Source: Tetradesmus obliquus
Lineage: Eukaryota > Chlorophyta > Chlorophyceae > Sphaeropleales > Scenedesmaceae
Direction: 5' to 3'
Assembly: GCA_030272155.1 (NCBI GenBank)
Contig: CP126196.1
Location: forward strand, 4,402,501-4,466,500
DNA length: 64,000 nt
Below are positions 6,549 through 64,000 of this stretch, one piece after another. The stretch's first letter is position 1. The number at the start of each line of letters is the position of its first letter. The position numbers were made by a program, and so were the translations under genes. Under the pieces are notes generated by a model, which searched no databases, was not told the origin of the DNA, and saw only the letters and a program-made list of their open reading frames with translations.

Positions 6549-9500
6549 ATGGGCCTACGTCAGTGGTGCTGCTGCAGCACAGCAGCACTAGGGTTGTTGC
6601 TGACACTCCTGCATGCATTCTGTCATTTCCTGACGTGTCAACATGCGTTGACCAGCAATGTTACTTTGATCGCAGTCAACGATGACGATGATGACGTGTT
6701 TGAGGGCCTGGATGAGTTTGTGTCAGACCTGGGCAGCCTGCGGCTGTCCAGCGGCTTGAGGGTGGAAGCAGTCGGCGATGATGGCCAGCCTCTGGTACGT
6801 GTTGTAGACTCTTAGAGTCTGTTAACATCTTGGCTTGTGTCAATTGCATGCAGACTATATGCTGCTGCTGTTGTCATGCCCGCTGTTGAACTACTGAGTG
6901 CAGCCGCAGCAATCATTTGCGCAATGATTCCAACATGCTACTGCTTGATATGCCGCCCACTGGATCGCATCATGATCTGACCTAAATTGAGTTTTTTTTG
7001 CCCGCAGGTGGACTACGAGGTGCACCGGCAGCACCGCAAGGATGGAAAGGAGACGCTGCCACTGTCCTTGGTGAGGAGGCCAGCAGCAGCAGCAGCAGCA
7101 GCAGCAGCAGCAGCAGCAGCAGGAAAGAGGCATCCAGCCCCTCGCACCTATTTCTGCTCCATGCTCTTACGCTGCAACAGAACCTAATAGGTTTAGCTGC
7201 TAGCTAAACCACCATCCACCCTGCCTACGCTGTGTGCGGCTGCTGTCTGCTTGCAACGTAGCAGTCACCGCTGCAAGCAAGCAAACAGCAGCATATTTGC
7301 TTGCAAAAGCTGTTTGCAACCTAGCAGCTACCGCTGCAACCTCATCAGTGAGGTTGCCGCTTTGTGCTCCTCCTACTTTGATATAGACCAGCCAAACCAA
7401 AACCTGACTAACATATGTAACTTGCATCAACATCCAATACTGTGCCACACCAAACAGCCCAGCAGCTTTGCTCGACACCAAATGTAACAAGCATTCTTAT
7501 GCTTACACCTCAAACAGCCCAGCAGCTACCGCTCCAACCTGATCAGCGAGGCAGCCAGTGGCAGCCTGCAGTGCCACCAACCTTTGACGTTCCTGTTAAG
7601 ACCTGCCTAACGTCTGTCTCTTCTGTCATATTTCATCTGCACTTCAACAACACCAACAGCCCAGCAGCCACCACTCCAACTTGATCAGAGGCTACTTCTT
7701 GATGCTCATCCTGCGATAGTTACCTTTGCCCCAACCAGACCCAACTACTATCATGTGTGCCTAATTCCACTGGTGGCACCTGCGCCGCAACAAACAGCCC
7801 AGCAGCTACCGCTCCAACCCAATTATAGAGATTGCTGCCTGAAGCTCCTGCAGTGATCTAGTGTGACTTTGACCAAATCTCACTTATGTCACTACTGTAA
7901 CATGCCACCTGTCATTTGCCACCTGTTACACAACAGCCCAGCAGCTACCGCTCCAACCTCATCAGTGAGGCAGTCATTGGCAGCCTGCCGCAAGGCCTGA
8001 GTGACGTCGAGCGAGCTAGCTTGGGGGCAACCCCACTCGGCGTGTCGCCAGCGCTGCAGCGCCTGCAGGTGAGAGCCGGGTTGTCAAGCGCTGCCTGCTG
8101 CTTGCTGTACAGTGCTGCATGCTGTGCTGCCTGTGGCCCAGCAGGTGGCTGTTGTGGTGCACTGGTGGCTGCAGCAGCTGGTGATCAATGTGTTTGATGT
8201 GTGTCTGATGGCAGCCTGCCGCAAGGCCTGAGTGACGTCGAGCGAGCCAGCTTGGGGGCAACACCTCTGGGCGTGTCACCAGCACTGCAGCACCTGCATC
8301 AGCTGCCACAGGTGGGCGAAAAGCAGCTCTGACCGTGATGTGGTGTGTATGTATGAAAGTCAGTTTGACTGCATTGACGCTCGGCGGCCGAGGTGGGGCG
8401 GCCTGCAGCAGCTGCCGCAGGTGTGCAACAGATGGCTGCTGCAGTGCGTCGGCAGCTCAAGCCAGCTGCAGCAGCTGCTACTGGTGGGCACGCTGACAGC
8501 AACGTGCAAGCAGGAGCTCATCTGGTCGCATCCAACTGCCACTGCTGCCGCCGCCCTCACCGCTACAGGCCAGTGGCCGCAGTGCACCAGGCAGTCATGC
8601 GGCCCGTGCAGCGCTGCGGGGCTGTGTGATGGCCTTCATCACCGCAGGATACAGCGGCAAGAGGTGAGCGCCTGGGCGCGCAGTGCCAAGTGACGAATGC
8701 TGCTGCTGCTGCTGCTGCTGCTGCTGCTGCTGCTGCTGCTGCTGCTGCTGCTGCTGTGCGGCCCAAGAACGTGTGAAAGGCGCCACGTTGCAGCTGTGAT
8801 GAGGATGCGGCAGCTTTGCATTTGGGATGATGGCTTGGCATTGGCTGTTGCTGGCGATCTTGTCCGTGCAGTCAGGCTACAGCAGCAGTTGCCAGTCCAC
8901 TGGCATGTCGCGCGGCTCATCTCATGTATTTGCTGCTGCTGCTGCTGCTGCTGCTGCTGCTGCTGCTGCTGCTGCTGCTGCTGCTGCTGCTGCTGCTGTT
9001 GCTGCTGCCAGGTTTGTGTTTGAGAAGGCCAAGGAGCTGGGCGTGCGCTGCGTCATCCTGGACGGCCCTGAAAAGTGAGCCTGGCAGGCAGCTGAACTGT
9101 GTTGCTGGGCTGTGGTACTGTAGGGCGCATAGGGTGCAAGCTCGATTTTGTAAATTGCATGCACTGGCATAGCAGCCACTGCAGCAGCTCAGCCTGACAG
9201 GCTTGCATGTCTGGTGTGGCTGTTGCCGTTATGGGTGTTACCAGCAGGCCTGCCTGCTTATCTTTGCCACTGTTTGCTGCTGCTGCTGCTGCTGCAGTTG
9301 GTCAGCCACGCTGGTCAAGGAGGGCCTTGCGAGAAATGTTCATGCAGTGTTGCTTGCTTTGATGCTGTGTGTGCTTGTTTCTTGCCTGTGTCTGCTAACC
9401 TTATGCTGCTTATTGTTTGGCTGCTGCAGCTGGTCTGCCACGCTGGTCAAGGAGGGGCTGGCGGAGCGTTACATCCCCATCGACTTTGCTGAGGTGGACA

Positions 9501-64000: not shown

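Follow-up and report, generated by a model that had tools for sequence, protein, structure and literature searches.

Gene models and control regions

The window analyzed here is a 64,000-nucleotide stretch of the genome of the green alga Tetradesmus obliquus (positions 4402501-4466500 of contig C6, CP126196.1; genome 104.66 Mb, 17 contigs). Its introns hold arrays of extra copies of exon ends. Head copies (acceptor plus exon start) lie upstream of the complete, or working, exon, and tail copies (exon end plus donor) lie downstream; surplus copies are termed decoys. A first-pass annotation made from the sequence alone had placed such arrays in seven named genes. Protein alignment supported the names ATP-grasp, COQ6 and Rh; the AP2 match to Pfam was below the cut-off for that family, and HAD and MYND were left unconfirmed, a Pfam search (1e-3) of the pieces given having returned no match to either.

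Annotated T. obliquus proteins were aligned, allowing for splicing, to set the exons of the three window genes, all on the forward strand; some ends were placed by hand. The ATP-grasp gene (6302-16580) was aligned with P0121 (OEZ86_004131) and has 18 exons (6302-6482, 6676-6794, 7008-7070, 7937-8068, 8569-8663, 9012-9074, 9430-9523, 9886-9991, 10270-10371, 10906-11075, 11939-12034, 12185-12245, 12612-12662, 13000-13073, 13970-14073, 14566-14705, 15297-15385 and 16444-16580). The aligner had proposed two small terminal pieces; once these were exchanged by hand for the stop at 16578-16580, the spliced reading equaled P0121 across all 625 residues. COQ6 (35887-39848; exons 35887-35989, 36169-36218, 36800-36940, 37373-38331 and 39493-39848) was aligned with P0001 and P0002, a small terminal piece again being replaced by hand; its product is 99% identical to T. 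obliquus P0001 (4 substitutions). The Rh-type ammonium transporter gene (45505-51680; exons 45505-45694, 46975-47018, 47358-47595, 47979-48056, 48645-48800, 49515-49731, 50584-50760 and 51153-51680) was aligned with P0241, P0242 and P0243, with the first exon start and the 3' end placed by hand. Its product matches PF00909 and differs from P0242 by 4 substitutions.

Five 40-kb stretches on other contigs (C1-C5) served as controls. Gene models were obtained with human DHX8 on contig C1 and with yeast glycogen phosphorylase (GP) on contig C4. Unless otherwise stated, counts refer to these five genes with protein-supported exons (ATP-grasp, COQ6, Rh, DHX8 and GP). A self-trained gene finder, which produced many tiny false exons, was used for candidate proteins, for strand choice in the controls and for one codon count.

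Arrays in the ATP-grasp, COQ6 and Rh genes

The arrays of these genes are on the forward strand. ATP-grasp exon 4 is preceded by a head array (7317-7988; decoys at 7320, 7518, 7660 and 7798, working copy at 7937) and followed by a tail copy (7978-8298) whose decoy has lost its donor. Exon 7 has a head copy (9288-9463) and a tail array (9478-9762) with an additional weak copy ending at about 9852. The tail copy of exon 9 (10321-10505) comprises 51 exonic bases with 0, 0 and 3 differences at codon positions 1, 2 and 3, and no intron homology. Exon 10 has a head copy (10706-10975) and a tail array of at least three decoys (10974-11630); exon 15 has a head array (13225-14029; decoys at 13269, 13418, 13553, 13692 and 13832, working copy at 13970) and a tail array of two decoys (14031-14317); exon 16 has a head copy (14424-14599) and a tail array (14648-15202) with decoy ends at 14958, 15083 and 15202. 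The head array of exon 18 (15478-16508) contains at least five decoys with CTG-rich spacers, and copies of the end of this last exon span the stop codon (16514-17273). In four of these exons the head-copy ends nearly abut the tail-copy starts (7978-7988, 10974-10975, 14029-14031 and 16508-16514), as if one point within the exon bounded both; four cases are too few for any inference. By eye, a paralogue of the gene (L002 1049-1287, contig C9) appears to have a head copy of its own at the counterpart of exon 16, and none was seen at the counterpart of exon 15.

COQ6 has a tail copy at exon 3 (36896-37103), a head array at exon 5 (38567-39612) with six decoys (38575, 38716, 38873, 39025, 39190 and 39342; working copy at 39493), one of them with an in-frame stop, and a copy of the 3' coding end spanning the stop codon (39732-40119). 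In the Rh gene, tail arrays follow exon 1 (45617-46233) and exon 6 (49607-50142), and tail copies follow exon 3 (47530-47712) and exon 5 (48734-48954; donor GT changed to GG). Head copies precede exons 5 (48503-48697), 7 (50420-50666) and 8 (50960-51201), and homology in the copy of the 3' coding end (51515-51902) stops at the stop codon. The exon 6 copy at 50022-50132 is an extra in-frame exon in P0241 and is missing from P0242. A transcript-derived Rh protein from a related alga (P0247) reads on as GE... straight after the end of exon 6, as if the intron were retained.

Density and anchoring of the arrays

Self-comparison of the window, a check proposed in the first-pass annotation, was performed with simple repeats masked and yielded 88 near repeats (offset <700 bp) in 39 clusters covering 21.4% of the window; first-order Markov resamples (three for each of six regions, 18 in total) yielded none. 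Near repeats are not peculiar to the window, and their density varies, C1 to C5 containing 20, 3, 7, 11 and 21 clusters per 40 kb. The control repeats include cases away from junctions, namely a 25-bp satellite (C1) and one intergenic pair. Of 27 control rows with at least 92% identity, 4 were one satellite and about 18 of the other 23, as judged by eye, had a splice signal where homology ends or close to that point. In the window, clusters 26178-26738 and 27231-27462 look like low-complexity coding repeats from their masked fraction, and no clear junction was seen by eye in clusters 53032-53255 and 23854-24257.

The claim that the arrays consist of exon pieces anchored at junctions was borne out. 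With a threshold of at least 10 bp of overlap and the six-base first exon of the GP model excluded, 40 of 40 arrays overlapped a working exon, against 19.8 under random placement. The 25 arrays within ATP-grasp, COQ6 and Rh or at their 3' ends all did so (null mean 10.9), as did all 18 in DHX8 and GP on other chromosomes. By gene, the counts on a working exon were 13/13 for ATP-grasp (5.3 expected; P = 0/2000), 2/2 for COQ6 (1.3; P = 0.35, by itself not significant), 7/7 for Rh (3.0; P = 0.0015), 11/11 for DHX8 (6.3; P = 0.002) and 7/7 for GP (3.9; P = 0.024). The high density that had been described also held, on other chromosomes as well as in the window: at least one extra copy was present at 38 of 108 internal junctions (20 heads, 18 tails). 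Array spans made up 11597 of 26247 intron bases (44%), a total in which GP intron length is overestimated by one exon, missed where a stretch of the yeast protein was omitted. Median intron length was 500 bp with an array (n=31) and 275 bp without (n=23).

The nearest upstream pairs included the acceptor in 20 of 20 cases, and 16 of 18 nearest downstream pairs extended beyond the donor, the remaining two stopping at the exon end. High-scoring segment pairs (HSPs) longer than 260 bp were left out of this nearest-pair list, and some multi-copy arrays are thus represented by a more distant decoy. That every unit spans a splice junction is true of most but not all, since some tails cross a stop codon instead (the 3'-end copies of COQ6, Rh and ATP-grasp given above). 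Repeats confined to introns were short minisatellites only (offsets 21/42 and 49 bp), and outside the arrays an ungapped diagonal scan of the five genes found no unit confined to introns that reached 100 bp. An attempt to measure splice-motif enrichment at homology ends was dropped; the motifs and self-trained matrices were too permissive (52/54 against 49.1 expected, and 137/139 against 136.4).

Tandem duplication at random positions, if events confined to introns or lying wholly in exons were unseen or purged and the remainder were due to ascertainment, would produce the head and tail geometry automatically, and junction-spanning events would form a large share of its placements (the 19.8 of 40 above). 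It does not account for 40 of 40 arrays on working exons or for the absence of intron-only units of 100 bp or more outside arrays, and we regard it as quite improbable.

Tandem repeats are a known source of misassembly, and the first-pass annotation had allowed that collapsed or mis-joined repeats might explain the arrays. We consider this very improbable: nearest copies are 2-31% divergent, other contigs show the pattern as well, and the Rh exon 6 copy is also present in P0241, a T. obliquus protein which, since it has four other substitutions relative to the window sequence, is probably from another strain. When the array at 13300-14400 was searched against its own genome, it matched only its own locus and the paralogous exon on C9, so that this array does not have the character of an introner.

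Unit size and extent of homology

Nearest-pair offsets had a median of 150 bp (range 70-767 bp). In the ungapped diagonal scan, 31 of 68 working-exon matches lay at an offset of 100-160 bp and none of the 68 below 100 bp. Nearest-pair identities ranged from 69% to 98%, a spread which makes it likely that intron growth is continuing, as had been proposed.

By HSP extent the 38 junctions fell into two classes. In 20 ("exon-only") homology extended no more than 17 bp into the intron, and 34-125 exonic bases matched at 80.6-97.6% identity; in the other 18 ("with-intron") the exon and more than 17 bp of intron were both repeated. When flanking introns were compared with those of other pairs, 3 of 20 exon-only flanks stood out against 12 of 18 with-intron flanks. 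Plain tandem duplication of exon plus intron, the first explanation offered for the arrays, fits the association with longer introns but fails for the 20 junctions without intron homology.

Both classes nevertheless look like one kind of event, since offsets and exon divergence are common to them. Offsets were below 200 bp in 15 of 20 exon-only and 10 of 18 with-intron junctions (medians 132 and 123), and exon divergence at codon positions 1, 2 and 3 was 0.044, 0.042 and 0.194 in the former and 0.066, 0.044 and 0.196 in the latter. Nor does greater age alone set the exon-only class apart, its exon divergence being equal to that of the with-intron class. In the aligned introns of the with-intron class 235 of 1476 sites differ, which is near the third-position rate. 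If a duplication is neutral, 4-5% change at positions 1 and 2 should leave its introns clearly alignable, as in the with-intron class; random duplication followed by neutral decay cannot account for loss of the intron part beside an exon part still about 96% identical at those positions.

The main rival to the mechanism proposed below is copying bounded by the exon. Half of the copies would never have held intron, a repair or RNA-templated process having placed a copy of the coding edge, together with its splice signal (at most about 17 bases of intron), in the neighboring intron. Near-identical pairs do stop at the splice site (GP exon 9 head, 42 bp at 97.6%; DHX8 exon 4 head, 64 bp at 95.3%), and 17 of the 20 exon-only flanks are no more alike than those of unrelated introns. 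Free insertion predicts varied offsets, however, whereas exon-only pairs match with-intron pairs in their short offsets and in exon divergence; at least two copies stop at stop codons, where there is no splice signal; and we know of no enzyme that recognizes exon edges in DNA. Copying of this kind appears improbable, although less so than random duplication.

Divergence of decoys and working exons

Amino-acid differences between decoys and working exons were polarized with proteins of other algae, human and yeast. Of 74 differences, 55 were derived on the decoy, 2 on the working exon, 6 on both or ambiguous, and 11 on neither or unresolved. Singletons at codon positions 1, 2 and 3 in ten multi-copy arrays numbered 25, 18 and 44 in decoys and 4, 0 and 14 in working copies, ambiguous columns (3, 1 and 12) being excluded. 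Constraint thus acts on the working exon, and it is the decoys that decay; among 45 decoys there were 5 stops and 20 frameshifting gaps. Random duplication would equally place most amino-acid changes on decoys, and it is also favored by the lack of codon-position bias among decoy singletons of the ATP-grasp exon 4 and exon 15 heads and the Rh exon 1 tail.

Differences at codon positions 1, 2 and 3 numbered 28, 28 and 128 in the five genes and 8, 9 and 44 in the two control genes, gapped pairs and pairs below 80% identity being left out. After removal of 2 of 43 pairs below 80% identity, 153 of 831 third positions differed, compared with 87 of 1672 first and second positions; for G/C sites the values were 13.7% against 5.1% and 5.1%. 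The automated control count, based on the gene finder, gave 23, 23 and 78 over 25 pairs, with third-position shares of 0.80, 0, 0.30, 0.62 and 0.56 in C1 to C5 (one pair in C2, two in C3). An annotation-free test of mismatch phase was significant in the window (z 6.4), C1 (3.3) and C4 (2.3) and not in C2, C3 and C5 (-0.1, 0.7 and 0.4).

This concentration at third positions would be expected if selection on coding sequence maintained the decoys as alternative or regulatory parts of exons, a reading also favored by their mostly intact splice signals and by the decoy that is an in-frame exon of P0241. On the other side, 55 of 57 polarized amino-acid differences lie on the decoy, stops and frameshifts have accumulated as given above, copy number is variable, most pieces lack the other exon end, and the decoys are skipped in P0001, P0121 and P0242. 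We give a functional role little credence. Full coding constraint on decoys, considered separately, was weakened by the 55 of 57 changes on the decoy and by base composition, which accounts for part of the third-position excess.

Unequal recombination between strongly diverged alleles or lineages, decoy and working exon being already different when joined, would account for both the synonymous excess and the different intron flanks. It requires a standing synonymous divergence which we estimate to be of the order of 10%, and it is at odds with the lopsided amino-acid changes (55 against 2) and with wide differences among copies within one array. It is about as doubtful as a functional role.

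Incompatible exon site pairs were found in COQ6 (3/6), the ATP-grasp exon 10 tail (6/10), exon 18 (3/6) and exon 15 (1/1); two further arrays had no informative site. At one residue of Rh exon 6 both window decoys read N, while the working exon and both P0241 copies read K, a pattern that requires exchange, reversal or parallel change. Exon and intron distances among copies of six multi-copy arrays were correlated with r of 0.54-0.82 in four and 0.39 and -0.92 in two.

Splice signals and splicing

The statement that copies keep their acceptor or donor signals proved mostly true. Head decoys retained AG in 14 of 15 cases and tail decoys retained GT in 15 of 18; in a wider list for the window, examined by eye, 15 of 22 tail decoys had GT. 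Median acceptor scores were 6.7 for working sites (n=54) and 7.1 for decoys (n=15), and median donor scores 6.4 (n=54) and 6.3 (n=18). The lower quartile of working sites was reached or exceeded by 11 of 15 decoy acceptors and 11 of 18 decoy donors.

The in-phase exon was always the last head or the first tail, as had been reported; this is geometrically forced, since the rest of the exon adjoins that copy only, and it provides no independent evidence. In seven introns a tail array and a head array occupy opposite ends, so that the conserved protein requires an inner pair of similar sites to be skipped. The annotated proteins P0001, P0121 and P0242 do skip the decoys. Since decoy and working sites are of similar strength, choice is probably by exon definition, with the closest acceptor and donor flanking an exon taken as a pair, which would single out the working exon.

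The copies sit in introns already required to join conserved exons and need no new splice position, which separates them from intron gain at AGGT. They are mostly one-sided, lacking the other exon end, which separates them from mutually exclusive exons; Rh 50022-50132 and the copies at 63021-63366 are possible exceptions.

Proposed origin of the arrays

We tentatively favor, at somewhat less than an even chance, repeated tandem duplication spanning exon ends and masked by splicing, with decay of the decoys and exchange with the working exon. Local duplication of segments of about 110-160 bp would straddle the edge of a coding stretch, at a splice junction or sometimes a stop codon. The full exon would survive undamaged at the last head or first tail, and the surplus piece would leave with the intron; the duplication would therefore be tolerated and the intron lengthened. 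Decoys would decay thereafter, and gene conversion between decoy and working exon would be able to continue only where the working copy is kept unchanged.

Gene conversion appears the likeliest cause of the loss of the intron part in about half of the arrays while the exon part stays alike. Continued exchange is proposed because coding parts are alike where intron parts are gone, exon divergence is the same in both classes, and sites are mosaic in COQ6 and ATP-grasp exons 10 and 18; the Rh exon 6 pattern fits exchange as well.

Several observations weigh against this account. The correlation of exon and intron distances in four of six arrays is what plain block duplication predicts, and intron homology persists (z >3) in 25 of the 45 adjacent copy pairs of the window (multi-copy arrays included; one row, Rh exon 8, is out of register by one base). 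Site incompatibility may reflect recurrent third-position change. The third-position excess is beyond that of a neutral decoy beside a constrained working exon, and simple conversion leaves it unexplained. Conversion alone also gives no reason for the missing intron-only duplications of like size.

A self-sustaining cycle of intron growth, which we consider possible but unlikely, would supply such a reason. Duplications would be invisible after splicing, and the working exon would rewrite the exon part of a decoy while the non-coding part drifts. Copies at junctions would be locked in and accumulate, and intron-only duplications of like size would be lost or fade. Locking might arise if recombination removing a damaged decoy were to break the working exon, with intron-only repeats being freely lost.

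Other arrays and features of the window

Further arrays were identified by eye. On the reverse strand, two head-type arrays of AP2-like exons lie at 24404-25289 (TTGCAG/CCAAGACAAAC and CTGCAG/GGGTGTGTTTTGG, the slash marking the junction). The rest are on the forward strand. The gene preceding Rh has a head-type copy (42812-43081; CTGCCAG/GTCATG), and a tail-type copy lies at 43345-43590 (GCAG/GTGAGG, GCAC/GTGAGG). The BTB gene has a head-type array (58006-58910; TGCAG/GTCTC), a tail-type array (58900-59537; AAAAG/GTAAG, AAAAG/GTGAG) and a tail-type copy near its 3' end (59785-60166; CTG/GTGAGTG). The last gene of the window has a tail-type copy (61185-61426). At 63021-63366 the copied unit (period about 132) appears to be a complete small exon together with its two splice sites and adjoining intron, and tail-type copies lie at 63438-63777 (CTGCAG/GT).

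A tRNA-Leu (AAG) gene is located at 61868-61946 on the reverse strand. CAG/CTG-type trinucleotide runs are abundant across the window in both introns and coding sequence (5350 bases masked). In the control stretch of contig C3, a segment at about 25-40 kb (L013-L015) contains intron-poor predicted genes with virus-like or tail-fiber-like repeats, unlike its intron-rich neighbors; it is perhaps foreign, an impression from unverified predictions.

Relation to known systems

Mutually exclusive tandem exons and dual-specific splice sites also place repeated exon sequence with splice signals in one gene. Those are complete exons in use, or sites in use, whereas the T. obliquus pieces are mostly one-sided and are skipped in the annotated proteins. 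Novel intron positions in Drosophila have reportedly arisen by intron sliding or tandem duplication; the likeness lies in tandem duplication near splice sites, but that work concerns individual intron positions, and the available summary of it makes no mention of multi-copy arrays.

In the potato RdRp gene, an intron arose when a single tandem duplication crossed the boundary between intron and exon (Ma et al. 2016, PMC4974935). According to the accessible text, that duplication resembles those described here in crossing a boundary and copying splice signals too, but it is a single case in which a new intron was made, whereas in T. obliquus introns already present are lengthened, and one junction may have as many as six decoys. 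Intron gain through tandem duplication is accepted, and a review table, in the portion available, lists 188 cases in several species (PMC3443670). Those cases likewise copy splice-like sequence; as described there, a duplicated exonic segment becomes a new intron, whereas the T. obliquus units hold a real acceptor or donor and need no new intron. Direct repeats near splice sites at intron-exon borders are given in the accessible part of another report as 4-30 bp long (mean 11.4 bp; PMC11782384), against 29-125 bp of coding sequence in the present copies, at offsets mostly of 100-160 bp or multiples. An available excerpt of a T. obliquus survey gives a mean intron length of 462 bp and a coding share of 15.7% (PMC5966456).

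A literature search including papers on this algal group, with subscription journals mostly beyond reach, found no description at such density. Junction-crossing tandem duplication is known singly; what appears to be new is its density with multi-copy decoys, the offset peak, the exon-limited homology and the decoy-side amino-acid changes.

The decoy phenomenon may also occur in a second alga. An internal near-duplicate of 14 residues was found in 5 of 360 fetched proteins (P0241, P0316, P0010, P0126 and P0289). P0010, P0126 and P0289 are the EukProt models gene25340-10999_t, gene25943-11622_t and gene24559-10170_t, which contain tandem near-duplicate peptides (in P0126, for example, LPIDFSEADTVLDR); none was found in the like-named models P0003, P0136 and P0246 (numbers near gene8700-8850).

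If the pattern is genome-wide, a substantial share of intron sequence would consist of decaying copies of neighboring exon ends, and the arrays would form a direct, datable record of intron growth. Natural genes become a testing ground for splice-site choice among near-identical rivals, and the arrays could explain gene models in which peptide pieces are repeated, such as P0241. The arrays also offer a setting for asking whether gene conversion preserves non-functional coding fragments.

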